A stretch of DNA of 42,608 bases from Bacteroidota bacterium (lineage in GTDB: Bacteria > Bacteroidota > Bacteroidia > AKYH767-A > OLB10): positions 1 to 42,608 of the forward strand of contig JAHEKC010000013.1 of the NCBI GenBank assembly GCA_024638565.1, written 5' to 3'. Positions 14,477 through 27,484 of the stretch are shown here, one piece after another. The notes beneath the pieces were generated by a model. It ran no database searches and had not been told where the DNA came from. It worked only from the letters and a program-made list of their open reading frames with translations. Both the position numbers and the translations under genes were made by a program. The first letter of the stretch is position 1. The number at the start of each line of letters is the position of its first letter.

Positions 14477-14597
14477 CCAAACAAAATAACAAAATATTTG
14501 CCCTGATTATCACCGGCCACGTCACAGGCGCTTTTATTCCCGCACCTGGTTGATTATATTACAACCTCTTTATTGATTGTATAACAATCTTTCCCCG

Positions 14598-17564
14598 ATG
14601 TATATAAACTGCCACTCCTGGTTCAGTTTCAAGTACGGAACCATGGATCCGGAAGCGTTACTGCGGGAGGCGAAGCAAAAGGATATTGCCTGCCTGGCGC
14701 TGACGGACATCAACAACACGTCGGGCATCCTGGACTTTGCCCGGCTGGCGCCCAGGTACGGTGTCCGGCCCGTGGCGGGCATCGACTTCCGTCACGGTGT
14801 ATGCCAGCGTTTTATCGGTCTCGCCAGGAACAACGACGGGTTCCGCGAGCTGAACGATTTTTTGTCGTTCCACCTGCACGGCAGGGAGCCCATCCCCGAA
14901 AGGGCGCCGTATTTCAAGAACGCGTACATCGTCTATCCTTTCGGCCGGGCACCTGCCACCTTGCGCGAAAACGAATTCACCGGCGTCCGGCCTGCCGACC
15001 TGTTCCGTTTCACCACGGCGCGGTGCGGCGGCCTGCCCGCCGGGAAGGCGGTCATGCTTTTCCCCGTCACCTTCCGCGACCGCAAGGATTACAATACCCA
15101 CCGGCTGTTGCGGGCCATCGGCCTGAACAGCCTGCTTCGCAAAGTGCCACCAGGTGAATTTGCCGGGCCGGAAGCCGTGATGCTGCACCGGTACGAACTC
15201 ATCAAGCTTTTTGGCGATTACCCCCGGCTGATCGACAATACGCTGCGGCTGCTCGATGGCTGCGCGGCCGACTTCGCCTTCGGGACAAACAAGAACAAGA
15301 AAACTTTTACGGGCAACCTGTACGAAGACGAGCTGCTGCTGCAACGGCTGTGCAGGAAAAACCTGGCATACCGCTACCCCGACGCGGGGCCGGAAGTCCG
15401 GGAGCGGTACGAGAAGGAGATCCGGGTCATCACCGACCTGGGGTTCGCGTCCTACTTTCTCATCAACCACGACATCGTCCGGTACGCGCGGCACAAAGGG
15501 TACTTTTATGTGGGGCGGGGCAGCGGCGCCAACAGCATGGTGGCCTACCTGCTGCGCATCACGGACGTGGATCCCATCGAGCTGGATCTCTACTTCGAGC
15601 GGTTCATCAACGCCTACCGCACCAGCCCGCCCGATTTCGACCTCGACTTCTCATGGAAAGACCGCGACGACGTGATCCGCTATATCTTTCATGAACACGG
15701 GAAGGCATACGTGGCGCAGCTGGCCACCTACAGCACGTTCCAGGCGAATGCCGTGGTGCGCGAGCTGGGTAAGGTGTTCGGCCTGCCCGCGCGGGAGATT
15801 GACGCGCTGGGCAGGAACCGGCGCCTGCCGCCCGCGCACCGGGCGGATACTAATGACCGGGTTACCCGCGCCATACAGGAGTACGGGCAGCGGCTGATCG
15901 ACTTCCCGGCACACCTGAGCGTGCATGCGGGCGGCATCCTGATATCCGAACGCCCCGTTCACTATTACACGGCCACGGAAGTGCCGCCCAAGGGCTTCCC
16001 CATCACGCAATTCAGCATGCTGGAAGCCGAAGACGTGGGGTTGTACAAGTTTGACATCCTGTCGCAGCGCGGGCTGGGACATATCAAAGACGCCGTGGAG
16101 CTCGTGAAGGAAAACCGCAACACGGAAGTCGACATCCACGACGTAACGCGATTCAAGCGCGACGAAAAGGTGCGTGAACGGCTGCGCGATGCCCGCTGCA
16201 TGGGCTGCTTCTATATTGAATCGCCCGCCATGCGCGGCCTGCTCAAAAAACTGCAGGTCGACAGCTACCTCGGACTGGTAGCCGCCAGCTCCATCATCCG
16301 GCCGGGCGTGGCCTCGTCGGGCATGATGCGCGAGTACATCCTCCGCTTCCGCGGGATGAAACCCACGTACGAAACGCCGAAAGCCATCCTCGATATCCTG
16401 GGGGATACCTATGGCGTGATGGTGTACCAGGAGGACGTGATCAAGGTGGCGCATTATTTCGCGGGGCTGACGCTGGGGGAGGCCGACATGCTGCGGCGCG
16501 GCATGAGCGGCAAGTACCGCGGACGGGCGGAATTCAAAAAGGTGGAGGAGAAGTTTTTTTCGAACTGCGAGGCCAAAGGGTACCCCGGCGAAGTGACGCG
16601 CGAGGTATGGCGGCAAATCGAGAGCTTCGCCGGCTATGCCTTCTCCAAGGGGCACAGTGCATCGTATGCCGTGGAAAGCTACCAGAGCCTGTTCCTCAAG
16701 GCGCACTACCCGCTGGAGCATATGACAGCCGTCATCAACAACTTCGGCGGTTTTTACCGGACCGAGTTCTACGTGCATGAAGCACGTATGCTTGGCGCCT
16801 GCGTACACGCCCCCGACATTAACCATGGTGAATACCTGGCCTCGCTTCGCGGCCGCGACCTTTACCTGGGCTTCGTGCACATGGCTGAACTGGAAAAACA
16901 GACCGCCGACCGGCTCCTGCGCGAACGGGCTGCCCGCGGTGCGTTCGCCTCGCTGGAAGATTTCATGCGGCGCGTGGAGGTTGCCGTCGAACAGCTGCGC
17001 ATCCTCATCCGCGCGGGCGCTTTTCGCTTTACCGGGCGTACCAAGAAACAACTGCTGTGGGATATCCATGCCATCCTGGGCGCCGCACGCAAGACCCGCA
17101 CGGAGAAGGAGCTGTTTGAAACGGGCCCGCGCTCCTTCCGGCTTCCCGACCTGCTGCACACACCGCTCGACGATGCCTGGGATGAAACGGAGATCCTCGG
17201 GTTCCCGCTGTCCTCACCCTTCGACATGCTGACCCGCCCCGTAAGCGCACCACCCGCCACGGCCCCAAAGGCAGGGGAGAAGGTCGCCGTGGCCGGCTAC
17301 CTGGTCACCACCAAGCGTACCCGCACCAAACACGGTGAGCTCATGGCCTTCGGCACCTTCCTCGACTGCGAGGGCCGCTTTTTCGATACCACCCATTTCC
17401 CGAAGGTGAATGCACGGTACCCGTTCCGCGGCAGGGGCTGCTACATGATCAAAGGGCGTGTCGATGAAGAGTTCGGCTTCCAGAGCATCACGGTATCTGA
17501 AATGCACCGGCTCGACATGAAGGAACGCGGCAAGGAAAGCCGCCAGCCGGGCGTGAAGTCGTAG
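14598..17564 (+). CDS. DnaE2-type (short) DNA polymerase III alpha subunit
   Basis: This 988-aa C-family polymerase starts MYINCHSWFSFKYGTM. The PHP domain has lost metal ligands (INCH for HxHxxYS, ALTDINNT for ALTDHGN), as in DnaE2 forms rather than the main replicase. The polymerase site is intact: GRGSGANSMVAYLLR, PDFDLDF (residues 345-351), and KFDILSQRGLGHI for the third Asp. A helix-hairpin-helix part and a C-terminal OB fold (VAVAGYLVTTKRTRTKHGELMAFGTF) complete it. Such copies usually act in error-prone translesion synthesis with ImuA/ImuB, but neither is adjacent. ATG 14598 is preferred over an upstream TTG at 14577. Confidence 0.88.
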   Translation: MYINCHSWFSFKYGTMDPEALLREAKQKDIACLALTDINNTSGILDFARLAPRYGVRPVAGIDFRHGVCQRFIGLARNNDGFRELNDFLSFHLHGREPIPERAPYFKNAYIVYPFGRAPATLRENEFTGVRPADLFRFTTARCGGLPAGKAVMLFPVTFRDRKDYNTHRLLRAIGLNSLLRKVPPGEFAGPEAVMLHRYELIKLFGDYPRLIDNTLRLLDGCAADFAFGTNKNKKTFTGNLYEDELLLQRLCRKNLAYRYPDAGPEVRERYEKEIRVITDLGFASYFLINHDIVRYARHKGYFYVGRGSGANSMVAYLLRITDVDPIELDLYFERFINAYRTSPPDFDLDFSWKDRDDVIRYIFHEHGKAYVAQLATYSTFQANAVVRELGKVFGLPAREIDALGRNRRLPPAHRADTNDRVTRAIQEYGQRLIDFPAHLSVHAGGILISERPVHYYTATEVPPKGFPITQFSMLEAEDVGLYKFDILSQRGLGHIKDAVELVKENRNTEVDIHDVTRFKRDEKVRERLRDARCMGCFYIESPAMRGLLKKLQVDSYLGLVAASSIIRPGVASSGMMREYILRFRGMKPTYETPKAILDILGDTYGVMVYQEDVIKVAHYFAGLTLGEADMLRRGMSGKYRGRAEFKKVEEKFFSNCEAKGYPGEVTREVWRQIESFAGYAFSKGHSASYAVESYQSLFLKAHYPLEHMTAVINNFGGFYRTEFYVHEARMLGACVHAPDINHGEYLASLRGRDLYLGFVHMAELEKQTADRLLRERAARGAFASLEDFMRRVEVAVEQLRILIRAGAFRFTGRTKKQLLWDIHAILGAARKTRTEKELFETGPRSFRLPDLLHTPLDDAWDETEILGFPLSSPFDMLTRPVSAPPATAPKAGEKVAVAGYLVTTKRTRTKHGELMAFGTFLDCEGRFFDTTHFPKVNARYPFRGRGCYMIKGRVDEEFGFQSITVSEMHRLDMKERGKESRQPGVKS

Positions 17565-17624: not shown

Positions 17625-17654
17625 TGTTTAATTATGTGGCATGAATGTTAAACA
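17625..17654. promoter_or_regulatory. Candidate operator TGTTTAA-N16-TTAAACA upstream of the CarH-like gene
   Basis: Arms TGTTTAA (17625-17631) and TTAAACA (17648-17654) form a perfect 7-bp inverted repeat with a 16-nt spacer. It ends 5 nt before the -7 box of the regulator gene, where a bound protein would block the -33 region. The same arms with the same spacing occur upstream of the DUF4397 gene (18618-18647). Autoregulation by the adjacent regulator is inferred. Confidence 0.65.
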
Positions 17655-17659
17655 TCTAA

Positions 17660-17667
17660 TATATTTG
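17660..17667 (+). promoter_or_regulatory. -7 box of the CarH-like regulator gene
   Basis: TATATTTG matches TAnnTTTG and ends 5 nt before ATG 17673. The predicted start site falls on or next to the start codon, so the message may be leaderless. Confidence 0.5.
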
Positions 17668-17672
17668 CAGTA

Positions 17673-18563
17673 ATGAAGTTCCAGGCGCACTATTCCATCA
17701 AGGACCTAGAGAAACTGTCCGGCATCAAGGCCCATACGCTCCGTATCTGGGAAAAGCGGTATGCGCTGTTCGAGCCGGGCCGAACCGAAACCAACATCCG
17801 CCACTATTCCAATGATGACCTGAAACGCATCCTGAACATCAGCCTGCTCAACAAGCACGGGTTCAAGATTTCGGCCATCGCCGCCATGCGGGAAACCGAA
17901 ATAGCGGAAAAGGTGGAGGAACTCAACCTGGTTCGGACCGGGAGGGAAGACCTGGTAGACAAACTCATCGTAAGCATGATCGAGATGGACGAGGTCCGGT
18001 TTGACAAGGTATTCTCGGCCGGTATCCTGCACAGCGGATTCGAGCAGACCATCCAGGTCCTGATCTTCCCGTTTTTCAAACGGATTGGCATCATGTGGCA
18101 GACCGGCGGCATCAACCCCGCACAGGAGCATTTTGTCAGCAACATTATAAGGCAGAAGCTGATTGTGGCCATCGACGGCCTGCAGGTACCCGTGGACCGG
18201 AAGAAGCCCACCGTGGTATTATTCCTGCCGGAAAACGAACTGCATGAAATGAGCCTGCTTTTCTACCATTACGCGCTCCGGTCACGCGGGGTGCGCACCG
18301 TTTACCTGGGCCAGACCGTGCCCCTCGAAAGCCTGGCCCGCGTGGTGGATGTGGTCCGCCCTGACTACCTGGTGAGTGTTATAACCAACCCGTTCGGGAA
18401 AAAAGACATGGAAGCCTATATGCAACGCCTCGCCGCGCTGAAAGGTGTCCGCCGGGTGCTTCTCTCCGGTAAGGCCGTTATGGACAACGGACATAAGCTT
18501 CCCGCCCGTATCGCGGGCTTCCCGGACCTGGCTGCCCTGCTGGGCCTGCTACGGCTTCGTTGA
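17673..18563 (+). CDS. MerR-family regulator with cobalamin-binding domain (CarH/LitR-like photoreceptor)
   Basis: This 296-aa protein has an N-terminal MerR winged helix (YSIKDLEKLSGIKAHTLRIWEKRY, residues 7-30; RHYSNDDLKRI) and a helical plus Rossmann cobalamin module. The B12-capping motif W-x9-EH is exact: W142, E152, H153. The lower-ligand motif DxHxxG appears as E189-L-H191-E-M-S194, so the key His is kept while Asp and Gly differ. In CarH/LitR proteins adenosylcobalamin holds the tetramer on DNA in the dark, and light releases it. Gene context (carotenoids, photolyase) supports that role. A palindrome upstream suggests autorepression. Binding of B12 is inferred. Confidence 0.87.
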   Translation: MKFQAHYSIKDLEKLSGIKAHTLRIWEKRYALFEPGRTETNIRHYSNDDLKRILNISLLNKHGFKISAIAAMRETEIAEKVEELNLVRTGREDLVDKLIVSMIEMDEVRFDKVFSAGILHSGFEQTIQVLIFPFFKRIGIMWQTGGINPAQEHFVSNIIRQKLIVAIDGLQVPVDRKKPTVVLFLPENELHEMSLLFYHYALRSRGVRTVYLGQTVPLESLARVVDVVRPDYLVSVITNPFGKKDMEAYMQRLAALKGVRRVLLSGKAVMDNGHKLPARIAGFPDLAALLGLLRLR

Positions 18564-18613
18564 TCCTTCGATTTTTTAACGTTGACATTCAGGGGGTTAC
18601 TGTACAAAGCAAT

Positions 18614-18651
18614 ATTTTGTTTAACTTTCTATTGTATTTGTTAAACAAAAT
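18614..18651. promoter_or_regulatory. Candidate operator upstream of the DUF4397 gene
   Basis: The arms ATTTTGTTTAAC (18614-18625) and GTTAAACAAAAT (18640-18651) are a perfect 12-bp inverted repeat with a 14-nt spacer. Within it lies the core TGTTTAA-N16-TTAAACA (18618-18647), identical in arms and spacing to the site upstream of the CarH-like gene. The site overlaps the -33 region of the promoter whose -7 box is at 18656-18663, as expected for repression. Confidence 0.7.
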
Positions 18652-18655
18652 GTTT

Positions 18656-18663
18656 TACCTTTG
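18656..18663 (+). promoter_or_regulatory. -7 box of the DUF4397 gene
   Basis: TACCTTTG matches TAnnTTTG. A TTG at 18632-18634, inside the palindrome, lies 21 nt upstream and would be the -33 element. The leader to ATG 18734 would be about 65 nt. Confidence 0.6.
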
Positions 18664-18733: not shown

Positions 18734-21115
18734 ATGAAAAAACTTCTACAAATCCTGGTCGCCGGCCTGATCGCGGTTCCGGCGAGCGCCCAAAACGCAG
18801 AATTGCAAGTAATTCACAATTCGGCCGATCCCGCGGCAGCATCGGTTGACATTTACGTGAACGGTACGCTGTCAGTGGACGATTTCGCATTCCGGTCAGC
18901 CACGCCATTCATTACGCTCCCAGCAGGTGTTATGCTCGATATTGGTGTGGCGCCAGGTAACAGCACAGGCGTCAACGACACAATTAAGAACTTCCCGCTC
19001 ACACTGGTAGCAGGCGAGCGTTATATAGCCGTGGCCAACGGGGTGCTTAATCCTGCCGGATTCGCTGCAAACCCCGACGGGAAATCAACCGCATTTACCC
19101 TGTTCCTGCAAAATGCCATCCGGGCTTCGGCCATGATGCCCACCGACGTAGACTTCATCGTCGTGCATGGTTCCAGTGACGCGCCCACCGTTGACGTGAT
19201 CGCGCGTCATGTAGCTACCCTTGTGGACGACGCAGCGTACGGAGACATCACACCCTATATAAGCGTGCCGCCGGCATCTTACATCCTCGATGTCACGCCG
19301 GCAGCAGGATCGCCCATCGTGGCCACGTTCGAAGCAGATCTCAGCGGGCTTACGGGCGGGGCAGCAGTGGTATTCGCTTCCGGCTTCCTGAATCCCGCTG
19401 CCAACCAGAACGGGCCGGCATTCGGACTGTTCGCCGCACTGCCTACGGGCACGGTCGTTACCCTGCCCGCCACCAGCCTGGCACGGCTGCAGGTCATCCA
19501 TAATGCCGCCGACCCGGCAGCAGCTACCGTGGATGTCTATATCGACGGCAACCTCACGCTGGACGATTTCGCATTCCGCACAGCCACCCCTTACATAGAC
19601 ATCCCGGCCGACGTGGTACTTAACATCGGCGTGGCGCCGGGTAACAGCACAGGTGTCAACGATACAATTAAGAACTTCCAGGTACAACTCGATAACGGCA
19701 ACTCATATATCGCGGTAGCCAACGGCGTGCTCAATCCCGCCGGCTTCGCCGCCAACCCCGACGGGAAATCCACCGCCTTCACCCTGTTCCTGCAGGATGC
19801 CATGCGTGAATCCGCGCTCAACATGAATGAAGTCGACTTCAGGGTCGTGCACGGTTCCAGCGACGCACCCACCGTGGATGTGATCGCACGTAACGTGGCA
19901 ACGCTTGTCGATGATGCCGCTTACAGCGACATTACCGGCTACCTGTCCGTGCCGCCGGCATCTTACATCCTCGATGTCACGCCGGCAGCAGGATCACCCA
20001 TCGTGGCCACGTTCGAAGCAGATCTCAGCGGGCTTACGGGCGGGGCAGCAGTGGTATTCGCTTCCGGCTTCCTGAATCCCGCTGCCAACCAGAACGGGCC
20101 GGCATTCGGACTGTTCGCCGCACTGCCTACGGGCACGGTCGTTACCCTGCCCGCCACCAGCCTGGCACGGCTGCAGGTCATCCATAATGCCGCCGACCCG
20201 GCAGCAGCTACCGTGGATGTCTATATCGACGGCAACCTCACGCTGGACGATTTCGCATTCCGCACAGCCACCCCTTACATAGACATCCCGGCCGACGTGG
20301 TACTTAACATCGGCGTGGCGCCGGGTAACAGCACAGGTGTCAACGATACAATTAAGAACTTCCAGGTACAACTCGATAACGGCAACTCATATATCGCGGT
20401 AGCCAACGGCGTGCTCAATCCCGCCGGCTTCGCCGCCAACCCCGACGGGAAATCCACCGCCTTCACCCTGTTCCTGCAGGATGCCATGCGTGAATCCGCG
20501 CTCAACATGAATGAAGTCGACTTCAGGGTCGTGCACGGTTCCAGCGACGCACCCACCGTGGATGTGATCGCGGTGGGCGTGGCCACACTTGTTGATGACG
20601 CCGCCTACGGGGATATCACACCGTATATAAACGTGCCAGCATCCGCATACAACCTGAATATTACCCCTGGTAATAACAATTCAACAATCGTGGCAAGCTT
20701 CTTCGCCGACCTTACATCCCTGGCAGGCGGCTCGGCCGTGATCCTTGCCTCCGGCTTCCTCGATCCCTCCACCAACCAAAACGGGCCAGCCTTTGGACTA
20801 ATAGCCGTGCTGACGGATGGTACCGTACTCATCCTTGGCAATGTGACAGGGCTCGAAGAGCCGTTGGCATACACCGATTTCGACGTATTCCCGAATCCGG
20901 CAACGACTGATGTCTCAATTCGTTTCGATCCTTCCGCCAATGGCGAAAAAGCGATTCGCCTCTCCGACCTTTCAGGCAGAACAGTCCTGTCAATGGATGC
21001 GGTGTTCGGGACGGAAGTGCAACTGAATACTGCCGCACTCAGCGAAGGGCTGTACATGATACATATTGAAACGGCCGGCAATGTGGTAACCCAAAAGCTC
21101 ATTATAAGAAATTAA
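18734..21115 (+). CDS. Secreted repeat protein with six DUF4397 domains and a T9SS sorting domain
   Basis: This 793-aa protein has signal peptide MKKLLQILVAGLIAVPASAQ. Three units of exactly 228 aa follow, beginning at codons 18803, 19487 and 20171. Each unit holds two DUF4397 beta-sandwich domains (LQVIHN..DPAAATVDVYIDG and FRVVHGSSDAPTVDVIA starts). The C-terminus is a T9SS sorting domain (DVFPNPATTDVSIRF ... LSEGLYMIHIETAGN), so the protein should cross the outer membrane and be attached or released. DUF4397 function is unknown, and adhesion or surface-layer roles are possible. Frame-open sequence upstream of 18734 contains the promoter, so the ATG before the signal peptide is the start. 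It sits between the CarH-like gene and the crt operon and ends in its own terminator. Confidence 0.9.
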   Translation: MKKLLQILVAGLIAVPASAQNAELQVIHNSADPAAASVDIYVNGTLSVDDFAFRSATPFITLPAGVMLDIGVAPGNSTGVNDTIKNFPLTLVAGERYIAVANGVLNPAGFAANPDGKSTAFTLFLQNAIRASAMMPTDVDFIVVHGSSDAPTVDVIARHVATLVDDAAYGDITPYISVPPASYILDVTPAAGSPIVATFEADLSGLTGGAAVVFASGFLNPAANQNGPAFGLFAALPTGTVVTLPATSLARLQVIHNAADPAAATVDVYIDGNLTLDDFAFRTATPYIDIPADVVLNIGVAPGNSTGVNDTIKNFQVQLDNGNSYIAVANGVLNPAGFAANPDGKSTAFTLFLQDAMRESALNMNEVDFRVVHGSSDAPTVDVIARNVATLVDDAAYSDITGYLSVPPASYILDVTPAAGSPIVATFEADLSGLTGGAAVVFASGFLNPAANQNGPAFGLFAALPTGTVVTLPATSLARLQVIHNAADPAAATVDVYIDGNLTLDDFAFRTATPYIDIPADVVLNIGVAPGNSTGVNDTIKNFQVQLDNGNSYIAVANGVLNPAGFAANPDGKSTAFTLFLQDAMRESALNMNEVDFRVVHGSSDAPTVDVIAVGVATLVDDAAYGDITPYINVPASAYNLNITPGNNNSTIVASFFADLTSLAGGSAVILASGFLDPSTNQNGPAFGLIAVLTDGTVLILGNVTGLEEPLAYTDFDVFPNPATTDVSIRFDPSANGEKAIRLSDLSGRTVLSMDAVFGTEVQLNTAALSEGLYMIHIETAGNVVTQKLIIRN
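19264..19887 (+). repeat. 624-bp intragenic direct repeat, copy 1
   Basis: This block is repeated at 19948-20571, offset 684 bp. By reading both copies I found a single mismatch (G19312 against A19996), a synonymous Ser codon change. The block spans the second half of unit 1 and the first half of unit 2 of the DUF4397 protein. Confidence 0.9.
19948..20571 (+). repeat. 624-bp intragenic direct repeat, copy 2
   Basis: This is the second copy of the block at 19264-19887, with 623 of 624 positions the same. It covers the second half of unit 2 and the first half of unit 3. The flanks (19888-19947, and after 20571) diverge at once. Confidence 0.9.
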
Positions 21116-21140: not shown

Positions 21141-21172
21141 GGAGGCTGCCATTTTTCGGCAGTCTCCTTTTT
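21141..21172 (+). terminator. Intrinsic terminator after the DUF4397 gene
   Basis: GGAGGCTGCC (21141-21150) pairs with GGCAGTCTCC (21158-21167), a 10-bp stem with one G-T pair and a 7-nt loop, followed by TTTTT. It separates the DUF4397 transcript from the crt operon. A GGTTA/GGTTTA-type short repeat (21121-21140) precedes it. Confidence 0.85.
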
Positions 21173-21234: not shown

Positions 21235-21657
21235 ATGAAAAACGATACACAAGATAAAGTTAGTGCCGCCGAAACCGGCAGCAGTGCAGCCCATCGGAAT
21301 GAGCTATTGATAAGCAAAGCATATATTCACGATATTGGGTCCGGTAAAGAAATGAACCTGAATCCCTTGTTTGCTATGGCACTTAACCGCCGGGATGTAT
21401 TCTGGATAAGTGACGATTCAGCACCCCTGGATTATCCCTGGTTTCACGGAATGTCCAGGCAACAGCTTTCAGCGTGGGGCGACGGATGGTACCGTATTGT
21501 CGAAAAGTGCTTCCTGCCCGGCGGGCTGCTGGAGATTCGTGTGGAAAACATGCATGGTATTGAAGGTGGGGCAAAAAAAAACAGCACCCATAATGAAAGG
21601 ACATTAACGACCGGAGTGCACGCGACAAATGGCGAGACCGGCAACGGTAGTTCATAA
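21235..21657 (+). CDS. Hypothetical protein heading the carotenoid operon
   Basis: This 140-aa protein is not recognised. The middle (about residues 25-105) looks like a folded domain (NPLFAMALNRRDVFWISDDS, PWFHGMSRQQLSAWGDGWY, LPGGLLEIRVENM). Both ends are polar and low in hydrophobic residues. There is no signal peptide, membrane segment or known motif. The stop is 7 nt before the crtI ATG in the same direction, which suggests cotranscription. The gene holds a run of nine A residues (21573-21581) near its 3' end, a possible slippage site. It may be a real small gene or the remnant of a larger one. Confidence 0.5.
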   Translation: MKNDTQDKVSAAETGSSAAHRNELLISKAYIHDIGSGKEMNLNPLFAMALNRRDVFWISDDSAPLDYPWFHGMSRQQLSAWGDGWYRIVEKCFLPGGLLEIRVENMHGIEGGAKKNSTHNERTLTTGVHATNGETGNGSS

Positions 21658-21664
21658 GAATGCC

Positions 21665-23158
21665 ATGAACCCACGGTCAGACAGGATTATAGTGATCGGG
21701 GCGGGCTTCGCCGGTCTCAGCGCCGCCGCAAGCCTGGCTGCCGACGGCCATTCGGTCACCGTACTTGAAAAACACGACCAGCCGGGCGGTAGAGCCCGGG
21801 TGCTGCACCAGCAAGGGTTCGCCTTCGATATGGGCCCCAGCTGGTACTGGATGCCGGATGTAATGGAACGCTTTTTCGGGCGTTTCGATAAAAAAGTTTC
21901 GGATTATTTCAGCCTGGTGCGCCTGGACCCTTCCTACCAGGTAATCTTCTCTGACTCGGAAGCGGTCAGCCTGCCCGCTGACTTCGTCGCCTTGCAGGGC
22001 CTGTTCGAGGAAATTGAGCCGGGAAGCGGGTCGCGTCTTAAAGAATTTCTTGAAGAGGCCGGCAGGAAATATGAAGCCAGCATGCGAAAGTTTGTCTATA
22101 AGCCCTGCCTTTCTGTTTCCGAGTTCGCCAGCTTTGAATTACTTTCCTCCCTTTTTTCGCTCGACTTGATGCAGTCGTTCAGCACGCATGCCAGGAAGTT
22201 CTTCCGCGATCCGCGAATATTGCAGATCATCGAGTTTCCCGTCCTTTTCCTGGGTGCAAGTCCAGCCAGGACGCCGGCCATGTACAGCATCATGAATTAC
22301 GCTGACATGAAGCTGGGCACCTGGTATCCGATGGGGGGCATGCATAAGCTCGTCGAGGCCATGGCCTCCCTGGCCGGGGAAATGGGCGCCGACATCCGGC
22401 TGTCGGCACCCGTGAGCAGCATCCGCGTGGAAAACCGCCGTGCCACCGGGGTGGTGACAAGCGGGGAAGCCCTCGATGCCGACCTTGTGCTTGCAGGGGC
22501 AGACTACCATCATGTGGAACAGCACCTCCTGGAACCGGAATACAGAACTTATTCGGAAAAATACTGGGACAGCAGAACCATGGCGCCTTCCTGCTTGTTG
22601 TATTACATTGGGCTGGACATAAAGCTCGGTAAGCTGGAACACCATAACCTTTTCTTCGATGCAGACTACGAACGGCATGCAGCTTCCATTTATGACACGA
22701 AATCATGGCCTGAAAAGCCGCTGTTTTACACCTGCTGCCCGTCCGCCACCGATCCCGGCGTCGCACCCGCCGGCCACGAAAACCTGTTCGTCCTTATTCC
22801 CGTTGCCGCAGGCCTTGACGATACACCGGAAATACGTGCTCAATACTTTCAAATGGTGCTCGGCCGCCTCGAGCGTTTTTGCGGTGAAAGCATTTCTGAA
22901 CACATAGTATACAGCAAAAGCTATGCGGGTAGCGACTTTACCCGCGACTATAACGCATTCAAGGGAAATGCCTATGGCCTTGCGAATACCCTGAAACAAA
23001 CCGCCATGCTCAAGCCCTCGTTGAGAAGCAAAAAAGTGAAAAACCTGTTTTATACAGGCCAGTTAACCGTACCCGGGCCGGGAGTGCCCCCGTCCATTAT
23101 CTCAGGGCAGGTAGCTGCCGACTATATTAAAACAAGATCCAGACGACAACTCGTATGA
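21665..23158 (+). CDS. crtI: Phytoene desaturase
   Basis: This 497-aa FAD-dependent enzyme introduces double bonds into phytoene to give lycopene (or a shorter desaturation product). The N-terminal dinucleotide-binding fold reads IVIGAGFAGLSAAASLAADGHSV, then EKHDQPGGRAR. The C-terminal CrtI signature reads LTVPGPGVPPSIISGQVAADYI. Near the start it has FDMGPSWYWMPDV, typical of bacterial CrtI. ATG 21665 places the Rossmann strand at residues 8-12, while an upstream in-frame start at 21629 overlaps the preceding ORF. Its stop overlaps the crtB start by ATGA. Confidence 0.93.
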   Translation: MNPRSDRIIVIGAGFAGLSAAASLAADGHSVTVLEKHDQPGGRARVLHQQGFAFDMGPSWYWMPDVMERFFGRFDKKVSDYFSLVRLDPSYQVIFSDSEAVSLPADFVALQGLFEEIEPGSGSRLKEFLEEAGRKYEASMRKFVYKPCLSVSEFASFELLSSLFSLDLMQSFSTHARKFFRDPRILQIIEFPVLFLGASPARTPAMYSIMNYADMKLGTWYPMGGMHKLVEAMASLAGEMGADIRLSAPVSSIRVENRRATGVVTSGEALDADLVLAGADYHHVEQHLLEPEYRTYSEKYWDSRTMAPSCLLYYIGLDIKLGKLEHHNLFFDADYERHAASIYDTKSWPEKPLFYTCCPSATDPGVAPAGHENLFVLIPVAAGLDDTPEIRAQYFQMVLGRLERFCGESISEHIVYSKSYAGSDFTRDYNAFKGNAYGLANTLKQTAMLKPSLRSKKVKNLFYTGQLTVPGPGVPPSIISGQVAADYIKTRSRRQLV

Positions 23159-23991
23159 AATCATTATTCGACTCCGTTTCCGCCCAGTGCAGCAAACTGG
23201 CCACGGAAAGATACAGCACGTCCTTTTCCCTTGGCATAAGGTTGTTCGCCCGCAGGCTGCATGCCCCGGTATATGCCATCTATGGATTCGTCCGGTTCGC
23301 GGATGAGATCGTGGATTCCTTTCACGGGTACGACAAGCATGGCTTGTTGCGAGATTACGAACGGGATGCTTACAGGGCCATTGAGACCGGCATCAGCCTG
23401 AACCCGGTGCTGAACAGTTTCCAGCATGCCGTGACAAAATACGGGATCGAGCGCGGGCTGGTAGACGCCTTTTTTCAAAGCATGAGGATGGATCTTTCGA
23501 AAAGCACATATGACAGGAGCGCATATGAACGATATATATACGGGTCCGCCGAGGTGGTCGGCCTTATGTGCCTGCGGGTATTCTGCGAGGGCGACCATGC
23601 CCTGTATGAGTCGCTGAAAGCGCCTGCCCGGAAGCTGGGGTCCGCACTCCAAAAGGTTAACTTCCTGCGGGATCTGAAGGCTGATAATGAGCTGCTTGGC
23701 CGCACCTATTTCCCTTCTGTGGACTTCAGCCAGTTCAGTGATGGGGACAAACTCAAGATTGAACGTGATATCCAGCGTGACTTCACCGATGCGCTGCCGG
23801 GCATTCGCAAACTGCCCGCTTCCTCCCGTGCAGGTGTTTACCTGGCATACTATTATTATGCAACGTTGTTCCGGAAAATACGCTCAGTTCCTGCGGGTAG
23901 ACTGGCTTCGCGGCGTATAAGGGTTTCTAATCCCCATAAGATAGGGCTGATGGTAAACTCGCTGATCAAATTCCGGCTTAACACCATATGA
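23155..23991 (+). CDS. crtB: Phytoene synthase
   Basis: This 278-aa protein joins two geranylgeranyl diphosphates head to head to form phytoene. It is a squalene/phytoene synthase family member. The first Asp-rich motif lies in YGFVRFADEIVDSF, and the second in KVNFLRDLKADNELLGRTYFP, in place of the usual NIxRDxxED...GRxYxP. The second motif is slightly relaxed (KADNE) but keeps its spaced acids. Its start overlaps the crtI stop and its stop overlaps the idi start, each by 4 nt. No GGPP synthase gene is in the window. Confidence 0.93.
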   Translation: MKSLFDSVSAQCSKLATERYSTSFSLGIRLFARRLHAPVYAIYGFVRFADEIVDSFHGYDKHGLLRDYERDAYRAIETGISLNPVLNSFQHAVTKYGIERGLVDAFFQSMRMDLSKSTYDRSAYERYIYGSAEVVGLMCLRVFCEGDHALYESLKAPARKLGSALQKVNFLRDLKADNELLGRTYFPSVDFSQFSDGDKLKIERDIQRDFTDALPGIRKLPASSRAGVYLAYYYYATLFRKIRSVPAGRLASRRIRVSNPHKIGLMVNSLIKFRLNTI

Positions 23992-24566
23992 CAACCCAAA
24001 TGAACTCGTTAGGACACAGCCAGCCCTCCCGCCCTGACGACGACGACATGCTTATCCTGGTAGACCGGGATGACTGCCAGTGGGGCAAACTGGAAAAGAA
24101 ACTGGTGCACGAGATCGGCGCCTTACACCGTGCCTTTTCGGTATTCATATTCAATACCCAGGGTGAACTCCTGCTTCAGCAACGCGCCGATGACAAATAC
24201 CACTCCGGTGGGTTATGGACCAATACCTGCTGCAGCCATCCCCGTCACGGTGAAGATCTGTACGATGCCGTGAATCGCAGGCTCGCGGAGGAGATGGGCC
24301 TGCAGTGCCATGTAGCGCATGCCTTTCATTTCACCTACCGGGCCGAATTGGACAACGGACTCACGGAACACGAACTGGACCACGTTTTCATGGGGGTTAG
24401 CGACCAGCGCCCGCAACCCGACGCGAACGAGGTGGAGCAATGGAAATACATGCAGCCGGAATCAGCGCTTGAAGACATGCGCGGAAAGCCGGGGACCTAC
24501 ACGGCCTGGTTCCCGTTGGCACTGCAGCGCATCCTGGAACACGGGCTCGTTTCAAAGGTGGCATGA
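23988..24566 (+). CDS. idi: Isopentenyl-diphosphate delta-isomerase type I
   Basis: This 192-aa Nudix-fold isomerase interconverts IPP and DMAPP, supplying the starter for prenyl chain growth. The catalytic Cys lies in TNTCCSHP (Cys82 aligns with the E. coli catalytic Cys). The catalytic Glu129 is in EHELDHVF, and the Nudix-like helix reads AVNRRLAEEMGL. An acidic run (PDDDDM, residues 16-21) precedes the fold. Placement between crtB and the photolyase, with 4-nt overlaps on both sides, ties it to carotenoid supply. Confidence 0.95.
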   Translation: MTTQMNSLGHSQPSRPDDDDMLILVDRDDCQWGKLEKKLVHEIGALHRAFSVFIFNTQGELLLQQRADDKYHSGGLWTNTCCSHPRHGEDLYDAVNRRLAEEMGLQCHVAHAFHFTYRAELDNGLTEHELDHVFMGVSDQRPQPDANEVEQWKYMQPESALEDMRGKPGTYTAWFPLALQRILEHGLVSKVA

Positions 24567-25864
24567 AGCCAAAAGTCAATGTCTTCTGGTTTCGCCGCGA
24601 CCTCCGGCTGGAAGACAATGCAGGCCTATGGCATGCCTTGCAGGACGAGTTGCCCGTATTGCCGCTGTTTGTTTTTGACAAAAATATCCTCGACCGGCTG
24701 TCCGACCGTTCGGACCGCCGCCTGACCTTTATATACAGGGCGCTTGAAGCAATACAGGATGCGCTGCATCCGCATGGCGCCGCGATCCGGGCCGAATATG
24801 GCACGCCGGTACAGGCTTTTGAAAAGCTGTTCGGCGAGTTCGAGGTCCATTCCGTTTATGTAAACAGGGATTATGAGCCCTATGCGCGTGACCGCGATGC
24901 CGCGATTCGGGGCTTCTGTAAGAAACAAGGGGTGGCACTACGCGATTTCAAGGACCAGGTCATTTTCGAAAAGGACGAGGTGCTGAAGCCCGACGGCACC
25001 CCCTATACGGTCTTCACTCCGTACGGGAACAGATGGAAGGCAAGGCTTTCACCCGGTGACCTGGAGCCATATAACTCCATGGGCCGCCCCGGCGACTTCT
25101 ATAAATGTGCATACCGGCTGCCCGCGCTTCCGGATCTGGGTTTCATGGAAAATGATTCATGCCTGCCCACCATCCGTATTGACAAAACATCTATACGCGA
25201 ATACCACCGGCACCGCGACTTTCCGGCACGGGATCGTACTACTTATGCCGGCACGCACCTTCGGTTCGGAACCGTCTCCATACGCGCACTCGTCAAGAAG
25301 GCGCGTGTCAACGAAAAGTATCTGAACGAATTGATATGGCGCGAGTTCTTCATGCAGGTGCTCTGGCACTTCCCGCATGTCGCCAACGGCCCGTTCCGGA
25401 AACAATACGAATCGATTCCATGGCGTCAGGATGAAAGGTCATTTGAGAAATGGCAGTGCGGCGAAACCGGCTACCCGATCGTGGATGCCGGTATGCGGGA
25501 GCTGGCCGAGACCGGATTCATGCACAACAGGGTGCGGATGATCACGGCAAACTTCCTGTGTAAGCTCCTGCTCGTGAACTGGCAGTGGGGTGAGGCCTGG
25601 TTCGCCGAAAAGCTTACTGACTTCGAATTGTCAAGCAACAACGGCAACTGGCAATGGTCGGCGGGCTGCGGTTGTGATGCGGCGCCCTATTTCAGGATCT
25701 TCAACCCGCAACTGCAGGCGCAGAAGTTCGACCCGGACGGTGAATACGTGGCGAGGTGGATTCCGGACTATGCCCCGGACCGATACGTGGAGCCGGTTGT
25801 GGATTATCGCATGGCACGCCAGCGGGCGCTGGATATATATAAGGAAGCACTGGCTGCAGCATGA
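24563..25864 (+). CDS. phr: Deoxyribodipyrimidine photolyase (cryptochrome/photolyase family)
   Basis: This 433-aa protein has an N-terminal antenna domain (VFWFRRDLRLEDNAGL, residues 6-21) and a C-terminal FAD domain (NELIWREFFMQVLWHFP; YPIVDAGMRELAETGFMHNRVRM; NGNWQWSAGCGCDAAPYFRIFNP). The pattern is that of class I CPD photolyases, which split UV-made pyrimidine dimers using blue light. The length is near the family norm. A cryptochrome signalling role cannot be excluded. It is embedded in the crt operon with ATGA overlaps at both ends, so photorepair would be made together with the light-screening pigment. Confidence 0.92.
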   Translation: MKPKVNVFWFRRDLRLEDNAGLWHALQDELPVLPLFVFDKNILDRLSDRSDRRLTFIYRALEAIQDALHPHGAAIRAEYGTPVQAFEKLFGEFEVHSVYVNRDYEPYARDRDAAIRGFCKKQGVALRDFKDQVIFEKDEVLKPDGTPYTVFTPYGNRWKARLSPGDLEPYNSMGRPGDFYKCAYRLPALPDLGFMENDSCLPTIRIDKTSIREYHRHRDFPARDRTTYAGTHLRFGTVSIRALVKKARVNEKYLNELIWREFFMQVLWHFPHVANGPFRKQYESIPWRQDERSFEKWQCGETGYPIVDAGMRELAETGFMHNRVRMITANFLCKLLLVNWQWGEAWFAEKLTDFELSSNNGNWQWSAGCGCDAAPYFRIFNPQLQAQKFDPDGEYVARWIPDYAPDRYVEPVVDYRMARQRALDIYKEALAAA

Positions 25865-26337
25865 GTCATCACCTGTTGAAGAGAAGCATGTTCCTGCCCG
25901 TCCCGCTCCATGTGGCCTGGGATTTCTTCTCCAATCCCCGCAACCTGGAAAAGATCACCCCGCCCGAAATGGCGTTCAGGATCCTGTCCGGCAACCTTCC
26001 TGACACAATTCACGAAGGGCTGACCATCAGGTACAGCGTGGTCCCGCTTGCTGGCCTCCGCATGCAGTGGGTCTCGGAAATAACCGGGGTCCGGGCGCCC
26101 GGTCGCTTCACGGACATCCAGCGCAAGGGGCCCTATGCCGCCTGGCAGCACACCCACTTGTTCGCGCAAGCGCCGGGCGGCACGAATATGGAGGACCTGG
26201 TGGAATACCGGCTTCCACTGGGGGCCCTCGGCCGACTCGCACACCGGTGGTTCGTGAAGAAACGGCTAAATGATATCTTTGAATACCGGACGGCCGCTAT
26301 CCGGAAACTCTTTCCCCCTGCAATGGCTGCATCATGA
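25861..26337 (+). CDS. SRPBCC (START-like) ligand-binding protein
   Basis: This 158-aa protein has an SRPBCC-type helix-grip fold: MFLPVPLHVAWDFFSNPRNLEKITPPEM near the N-terminus, a central WVSEITGVRAPGRFTDIQ, HTHLF and the closing helix RLNDIFEYRTAAIRKLF. Such proteins bind hydrophobic ligands in a cavity. The ligand here is unknown. Its location between photolyase and crtZ, overlapping both by 4 nt, suggests a role linked to carotenoid or light physiology, for example handling a carotenoid intermediate. That is inference only. Confidence 0.85.
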   Translation: MSHHLLKRSMFLPVPLHVAWDFFSNPRNLEKITPPEMAFRILSGNLPDTIHEGLTIRYSVVPLAGLRMQWVSEITGVRAPGRFTDIQRKGPYAAWQHTHLFAQAPGGTNMEDLVEYRLPLGALGRLAHRWFVKKRLNDIFEYRTAAIRKLFPPAMAAS

Positions 26338-26789
26338 ACCTGCTGATCTTTCTCACTTCCTTCGTGGCAATGGAGGCTGTTGCCTGGTTCACGCATAAAT
26401 ACGTCATGCACGGGCTGTTGTGGGTGCTGCACCAGGACCACCATGTTCGCGGCGAGGGCCAGGTGCTGGAAAAAAATGATTCCTTCTTCCTCATCTTCGC
26501 CATCCCCGGGTTCCTGCTGACCCTCTGGGGCAGCCTGGCCGGTTTTGATTTCCGGTTCTGGATCGGCGCAGGCATCACCGCATATGGTGCGGCTTATTTC
26601 CTGGTACATGACATATTCATTCACCAGCGGTTCAGGATCCTGAGAAAGACGGACAACTTTTACCTGCGCGCCATCCGCAGGGCACATAAGGTGCACCACA
26701 AGAAGCTTGTGAAGGAGGATGGGGAGTGCTTTGGCATGCTTTGGGTGCCGCTTAGGTATTTCAGGCAGGCCCGGCAGGCGAAAACATGA
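26334..26789 (+). CDS. crtZ: Beta-carotene hydroxylase (CrtZ-type)
   Basis: This 151-aa integral membrane di-iron hydroxylase adds 3-hydroxyl groups to beta-ionone rings (beta-carotene to cryptoxanthin to zeaxanthin). Histidine boxes are HKYVMHGLLWVLHQDHH near residue 22, IHQRF, and AHKVHHKKL near residue 120, the fatty acid hydroxylase superfamily arrangement. Hydrophobic segments lie at the N-terminus and centre (FFLIFAIPGFLLTLWGSLAGF). Length matches short CrtZ. Coupling by ATGA overlap to the lycopene cyclase gene fits sequential steps. Confidence 0.92.
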   Translation: MNLLIFLTSFVAMEAVAWFTHKYVMHGLLWVLHQDHHVRGEGQVLEKNDSFFLIFAIPGFLLTLWGSLAGFDFRFWIGAGITAYGAAYFLVHDIFIHQRFRILRKTDNFYLRAIRRAHKVHHKKLVKEDGECFGMLWVPLRYFRQARQAKT

Positions 26790-27484
26790 GCACCTACCTG
26801 GCCGTCGACCTGGCAGCCATCCTCATTCCGCTGTTCTTTACCTTCCATCCCGCGCTGCGGTTCGACCGCAGGTACCGCACGTTCTGGCCCGCCTGCGCGG
26901 TGGTAGCGCTTGTATTCCTTCTGTGGGACGCCTGGTTCACGGCACGCGGTGTATGGGGATTCAATCCCAGCCACCTTGCAGGATGGCATCTCTTTAACCT
27001 GCCGGCGGAAGAGATCCTGTTTTTCTTTTGTATTCCATATGCCTGTGTATTCACATACCATTGCTTTGAACGGCTGCGCGTTCCGGCACCCGGTCAGCGA
27101 ACACAACATGTGGTTACGGTGGTGCTGCTGGCATGTCTCCTGGTGCCCGGCCTGGCATTCCTTGGCCGCGCATACACCGCCACTACATTCCTGCTTATGG
27201 CGGCATCGCTCGCCTGGTGGCAGTTCGCGGCACGCGTAACGTGGCTTGGTCGCTTTTACATAGCGTACAGTGTATTGCTTATTCCGTTCCTTGCCGTGAA
27301 CGGCGTGTTAACCGGTTCATGGCTCAGTGAGCCCGTGGTGTGGTATGACGACACGGAAAATCTTGGGCTGCGGATTGGCACCATTCCGGTGGAGGATGTT
27401 TTTTATGGCATGCTGCTAATCGGATGGATCGTTGCTGCCATGGAATGGCTGGAGAAAAAGCGCTTACGCGGTGAAGCCCGTTAA
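26786..27484 (+). CDS. Lycopene beta-cyclase, fused CrtYc-CrtYd type
   Basis: This 232-aa, multi-spanning membrane protein consists of two similar halves. Each half carries the heterodimeric lycopene cyclase acidic motif: LPAEEILFFFCIPY (half 1) and IPVEDVFYGMLLI (half 2). The aromatic WDAWFTARGVWGFNP is also typical. It closes the ends of lycopene into beta-ionone rings, the step before CrtZ. It is the last gene of the overlapping run. No clear terminator was seen after it, and the next gene begins 25 nt downstream. Confidence 0.9.
   Translation: MSTYLAVDLAAILIPLFFTFHPALRFDRRYRTFWPACAVVALVFLLWDAWFTARGVWGFNPSHLAGWHLFNLPAEEILFFFCIPYACVFTYHCFERLRVPAPGQRTQHVVTVVLLACLLVPGLAFLGRAYTATTFLLMAASLAWWQFAARVTWLGRFYIAYSVLLIPFLAVNGVLTGSWLSEPVVWYDDTENLGLRIGTIPVEDVFYGMLLIGWIVAAMEWLEKKRLRGEAR

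Follow-up and report, generated by a model that had tools for sequence, protein, structure and literature searches.

Described CarH systems

Among the closest known systems are the CarH (CarH/LitR) adenosylcobalamin (AdoCbl) photoreceptors of Thermus thermophilus and Bacillus megaterium. In known CarH operators, an 11-bp direct repeat of the form nnnnTnnACAn occurs three or four times in tandem (PMC9304148), and the published light signature of these proteins comprises GxxW, EH, GxxH, and GxxxP (PMC11796333). In the CarA/CarH systems of Myxococcales, the Pcrt operator of Myxococcus overlaps the -35 region and contains an inverted repeat, which is also read as direct repeats and is limited to a few species. 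Among Bacteroidota, gene clusters containing merR, rpoE (encoding an ECF sigma factor), crtI, and crtB are described for Echinicola (PMC8683446), and Chryseobacterium lacus has light-induced carotenoids, with no regulator named in the accessible text (PMC7064467). The accessible portions of these two accounts contain no operator, no assignment of merR to CarH, and no DUF4397 target. A literature search, in which subscription papers were mostly out of reach, found no published Bacteroidetes operator with the sequence described below. MliR of Bizionia was rejected as a relative, because cobalamin appears nowhere in the paper, which presents it as a MerR-like regulator.

The CarH-type regulator

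The stretch of DNA analysed (42,608 nucleotides; hereafter, the window) belongs to a genome of 3.02 Mb in 165 contigs (G000). It contains a gene on the forward strand (P0001; positions 17673-18563) for a regulator composed of a MerR winged helix, a B12_binding_2 four-helix bundle, and a Rossmann domain. The Pfam models MerR_1 and B12-binding_2 matched the protein, and the Pfam Rossmann B12 model gave no match. In the PDB, most of the protein could be matched to Thermus CarH (6e-26), and the AlphaFold model of the protein (mean pLDDT, 87) was most similar to 5c8d and 5c8e, which are full-length CarH without and with DNA, respectively. The CarH/LitR domain order (MerR DNA-binding domain, B12 helical bundle, and Rossmann domain) is thus found in both the sequence and the modelled fold. 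The AdoCbl-contact residues W142, E152, H153, and H191 are present and invariant in the family alignment, and W-x9-EH is shared by the window protein and 114 of 117 relatives. With regard to the light signature, GIMW, EH, and GQTVP (for GxxxP) are present, whereas GxxH is represented by NELH, in which the histidine is kept and the glycine is not. Similarly, the B12 motif E/DxHxxG appears as ELHEMS, with the histidine kept and the glycine replaced by serine; among the 113 relatives read at this glycine position, 59 have glycine and 41 serine. The protein therefore shares with Thermus and Bacillus CarH the domain order, fold, W-x9-EH, axial histidine, and GxxxP but differs from them in two motif glycines. 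Because of these changed glycines and a score of 101.5 bits against the 400-bit cut-off of the NCBIfam CarH equivalog (NF052513), which marks it as a homologue rather than a curated equivalog, the protein is referred to here as CarH-type. A gene for a DnaE2-like DNA polymerase III alpha subunit (14577-17564) lies directly upstream of carH in the window, and other genes occupy this position in relatives.

Palindromes at the carH and DUF4397 promoters

The sequence-only reading had pointed to one perfect palindrome, TGTTTAA-N16-TTAAACA, at two sites, and re-reading of the sequence confirmed 7 + 7 arms with 16-nt spacing at both 17625-17654 (operator 1, in the carH promoter, where it predicts autoregulation) and 18618-18647 (operator 2, in the promoter of the DUF4397 gene). 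The 12-bp arms claimed for operator 2 were also found, namely ATTTTGTTTAAC (18614-18625) and GTTAAACAAAAT (18640-18651). The -7 boxes, said to lie 5-8 nt beyond the palindromes, are TATATTTG (17660-17667, forward strand), 5 nt past operator 1, and TACCTTTG (18656-18663, forward strand), 8 nt past operator 2. A counterpart of operator 1 is located at the same place in locus L051 and, with one mismatch, in genome G305. Because no more than 5 nt separate the -7 box of carH from the start codon (17660-17673), the carH transcript may be leaderless. Loose matches were rejected as evidence, because those with three mismatches in the window are at the chance level: window shuffles allowing up to three mismatches gave a mean of 0.84 matches, so that weak matches are common and perfect ones are not.

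In the whole window genome, four perfect palindromes were identified, compared with none of the reversed control pattern. In addition to the two in the window, these are C57:5540, flanked by genes for a flavin reductase and a short-chain dehydrogenase, and C19:13911 (minus strand), directly preceding a gene for a secreted GEVED-type protein. Perfect copies were present in 17 of 24 genomes of the same family, in which the control pattern occurred once. Two genera have perfect palindromes ahead of related genes for secreted GEVED-type proteins (L005 at G000 C19:13911 and L042 at G011:C4), and the GEVED-type protein is a possible further surface target.

Spacing and distribution of the palindrome

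Spacings of N = 0 to 30 were compared at 80 named loci of Bacteroidota that encode relatives of the window regulator (1.41 Mb in all), including Algoriphagus, Roseivirga, Spirosoma, Chryseobacterium, Pontibacter, and many metagenome-assembled genomes (MAGs); MAGs also make up most of the genomes compared in this study. Perfect matches numbered 57 for the 16-nt spacer, 6 for the 17-nt spacer, and 0-1 for every other spacing, and the control pattern gave no matches in the same loci. The base profile widens the arms to about TTTTGTTTAA...TTAAACAAAA, with a scarcely conserved spacer. A fixed distance, conserved arms, and a barely conserved spacer together are the hallmark of a protein that reads a pair of half-sites.

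When 248 Bacteroidota genomes were divided by possession of a carH-clade gene (profile E ≤ 1e-20), the perfect N16 palindrome was found in 43 of 56 genomes with carH versus 6 of 192 without it, corresponding to 128 and 6 sites, respectively (Fisher p 6e-30, a value that overstates the strength of the association and is merely indicative because the genomes are related). Within the class Bacteroidia alone, the corresponding figures were 41 of 50 versus 2 of 12 genomes and 126 versus 2 sites. The perfect N16 site is absent from 13 of the 56 carH genomes; in three carH genomes without N16 (G030, G056, and G149), an N17 palindrome adjoins carH. In about a dozen loci a site precedes carH itself, and in many the following gene has one upstream. 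In G021 and G023, the ECF sigma gene lies on a different contig from carH and still keeps the palindrome (N17), with a second, weaker copy 63 bp further on, indicating that the link is more than adjacency. Conservation in orthologous promoters, on which the sequence-only reading had staked its proposal, was thus found at the class level. The co-occurrence with carH and the sites at carH, at pigment and sigma genes, and at DUF4397 genes support its view of the palindrome as the regulator's operator; from these sequence comparisons, the palindrome is very probably the operator of the CarH-type protein.

Operator geometry

The half-site TAAACA, read in the right arm and on the opposite strand in the left arm, fits TnnACA. 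The operator is consequently less foreign than the sequence-only reading, which set it apart from the TGTACA-type sites of proteobacterial LitR, had supposed: the half-site obeys the known rule (PMC9304148), and it is the inverted arrangement that differs. The possibility that the palindrome or its flanks conceal tandem direct repeats was considered and rejected: TnnACA at offsets -22, -11, +11, and +22 occurred in 0, 1, 0, and 2 of 208 contexts, respectively (mean per offset, 1.7), showing no enrichment at ±11 or ±22, and an excess at -21 is merely the left arm followed by CA. The palindrome therefore lacks the array of three or four same-direction 11-bp repeats that defines known CarH operators. 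The only regular extra TnnACA copies, at ±44, represent paired whole palindromes; such pairs are 44 bp apart in 12 loci and 63 bp apart in 6 loci. Palindrome pairs precede the ECF sigma gene in L054, L057, L069, L076, L077, L083, L086, L098, L128, and others. Were each half-site to take up an 11-bp unit, the empty slot between the units would be 10 bp with N16 and 11 bp with N17. We infer that one dimer of a tetramer binds each palindrome.

The system thus resembles those of Thermus and Bacillus in its TnnACA half-site and carotenoid-gene neighbourhood, whereas their operators are tandem and here two half-sites face each other across 16 (17) nt. Compared with the inverted repeat of Myxococcales, the form in Bacteroidia is conserved, resides at -33/-7 promoters, and in some loci occurs as pairs 44 or 63 bp apart. 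Relative to the palindrome start, the -7 box TAnnTTTG is commonest at -6, +4, +15, and +35 and is located at +35 and +38 in the window. The operator thus overlaps the promoter in several registers, which fits blocking.

DUF4397 genes as predicted targets

The gene following carH (18734-21115, forward strand) encodes a protein with repeated DUF4397 domains (Pfam PF14344; 186.1 bits versus a cut-off of 30.6, in six stretches) and a C-terminal type IX secretion tail recognised by PF18962 (Por_Secre_tail, 48 bits) and TIGR04183, both above cut-off. The protein is therefore a cell-surface or secreted protein. Two of its DUF4397 repeats were modelled as tandem Ig-like beta sandwiches (pLDDT, 88), for which the nearest solved fold is the PepT2 extracellular domain. 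A role in adhesion is a guess.

For the class set, the single best DUF4397 gene of each genome was examined, and 40 such genes had readable upstream sequence, with start codons set by rule. The palindrome lies within 200 bp upstream of 14 of these 40 in perfect form and of 18 when one mismatch is allowed, versus expectations of 0.00 and 0.14, respectively, from dinucleotide shuffles. The corresponding counts for fasciclin, a second surface-protein family in the same class genomes, were 0/30 and 2/30. These figures, drawn from many genera, bear out the proposed conservation of the palindrome at DUF4397 promoters; of the inferences in the sequence-only reading, the one on DUF4397 was the boldest and was strengthened the most. 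In the window family, a perfect palindrome is present just upstream of DUF4397 in G000, G002 (N17), G003, G004, G011, G012, G014, and G018, and in every genome except that of the window these sites are on a contig other than that of carH; DUF4397 genes of G006, G015, G016, G017, G019, and the g10 genomes have no upstream palindrome. In other families of the class, a perfect or one-mismatch palindrome precedes DUF4397 in 10 genomes, all of which possess carH (10/10). DUF4397 and carH also co-occur (36/45 vs 31/74 genomes, p 5e-5). The order operator-carH-operator-DUF4397 recurs in G305, a member of another family, where the encoded proteins are about 57% identical to those of the window. A DUF4397-epimerase-SRPBCC-like-carH series in G279 and G317 begins with a palindrome and is followed by another palindrome, an ECF sigma gene, idi, and folE. 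Judging from this placement and from characterised CarH proteins, the DUF4397 gene may well be light-induced in the window organism.

Pigment and other downstream genes

When genes directly following palindromes were counted as clusters of distinct proteins, the most frequent were genes for ECF sigma factors (66), carH (14, including 2 with sites inside the gene), GTP cyclohydrolase I (folE; 10), crtI (7), fasciclin (6), DUF4397 (3 in this first set), and microbial rhodopsin (2). Short-chain dehydrogenase, glutathione peroxidase, heme oxygenase, and other genes were single cases, which may include chance. These loci match the gene content of the Echinicola clusters (PMC8683446). Fasciclin genes were rejected as a general target, since only 2 of 30 best genes have a palindrome within one mismatch despite the six among the palindrome neighbours. 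A palindrome is located 68 nt before a rhodopsin gene in L137 (G217:C41:21121), which matches PF01036, and 8 nt before another in L140 (G169:C2:51329), which clusters with L137; control of a light-driven pump by a B12-type light sensor is possible in these two loci.

In the window, the DUF4397 gene is followed by an intrinsic-terminator-like hairpin with a T run, read from the sequence (21141-21172, forward strand), and then by a photoprotection cluster on the same strand (21235-27484) comprising orf140, crtI, crtB, idi, a photolyase gene, and genes for an SRPBCC-like protein, a CrtZ-like FA_hydroxylase, and a lycopene cyclase. Its frames overlap or adjoin, the carotenoid and photolyase genes occupying 21629-27484. 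The 140-aa frame before crtI (21235-21657) had no Pfam or NCBIfam match. The small SRPBCC-like protein is encoded at 25861-26334, between the photolyase and CrtZ-like genes, and a homologue is encoded beside carH in G279 and G317 (L250 3791-4273). A scan of the window found no palindrome belonging to the cluster (21235-27484). Loss of the ECF sigma gene from the window genome was considered and rejected, as an orthologue is present on C105, minus the palindrome. Since this sigma gene has no palindrome and the crt cluster lies behind a terminator without one, the predicted direct targets in the window genome are carH and the DUF4397, GEVED-type, and dehydrogenase genes, and pigment control in this organism may occur by read-through or be absent.

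Alternative explanations

Several other explanations of the palindrome and its regulator were weighed. That the palindrome is an AT-rich chance match or an intrinsic terminator stem is a practically negligible alternative: loose matches with three mismatches are indeed expected by chance in the window, but near-zero controls, a single preferred spacing, and promoter placement refute it by counts. It is also very improbable that another transcription factor travelling with carH binds the palindrome. Six genomes lacking carH carry single perfect sites, which would agree with such a factor, whereas sites are present at carH itself, are mostly gone when carH is absent, and are built from the CarH half-site.

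Two further alternatives accept the CarH-type protein as the binding factor. It could act as a MerR-like activator, switching genes on in the dark or in the light, and both window sites do lie in the spacer region ahead of the -7 box, where MerR-type activators sit; the register of the -7 box nevertheless varies widely among relatives, which suits blocking over the realignment of promoter elements, making activation quite improbable. Alternatively, the protein of this subclade could bind the operator without sensing light through AdoCbl, either responding to B12 status or a redox cue or acting without a cofactor as does CarA of Myxococcus. The replacement of the ExHxxG glycine by serine or valine and the loss of the GxxH glycine in the window protein, L051, and G305 would agree with this possibility, which is unlikely given that W-x9-EH, the axial histidine, and GxxxP are all kept, that the genes cluster with photolyase and carotenoid genes, and that rhodopsin is among the targets.

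Proposed model and implications

The likely mode of regulation is that a CarH-type B12 photoreceptor represses carH and the DUF4397 gene in the dark and releases them in the light. In the dark, the AdoCbl-bound protein would occupy the two inverted TAAACA half-sites of each palindrome and, as the palindromes overlap promoters, repress both carH itself and the DUF4397 gene; light would break AdoCbl, and the DNA would be released. Comparative sequence data show the predicted operator, link it to the regulator clade, and place it repeatedly at the promoters of carH, ECF sigma, crt, and DUF4397 genes. That the protein binds AdoCbl, represses in the dark, and lets go of the DNA in the light is expected by analogy with characterised CarH proteins. 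More broadly, we lean towards a CarH operator code of Bacteroidia in which inverted TAAACA half-sites separated by a one-turn gap are read by facing DNA-binding domains, serving a class-wide light regulon that includes Ig-like DUF4397 proteins.

For Bacteroidia, in which light induction of pigments is known but no regulator was named (PMC7064467), these results provide a ready sequence of a probable light-regulated operator. The palindrome would be a naturally occurring counterpart to tandem CarH operators, helping to explain how CarH reads DNA, and it would be useful for green-light gene switches in Bacteroidota. Placing DUF4397 in a concrete regulon makes its role in light-dependent surface behaviour testable and suggests that Bacteroidia alter their cell surface in the light. 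If the proposed model is true, a B12 light sensor would be linked to the cell surface through secreted DUF4397 proteins.
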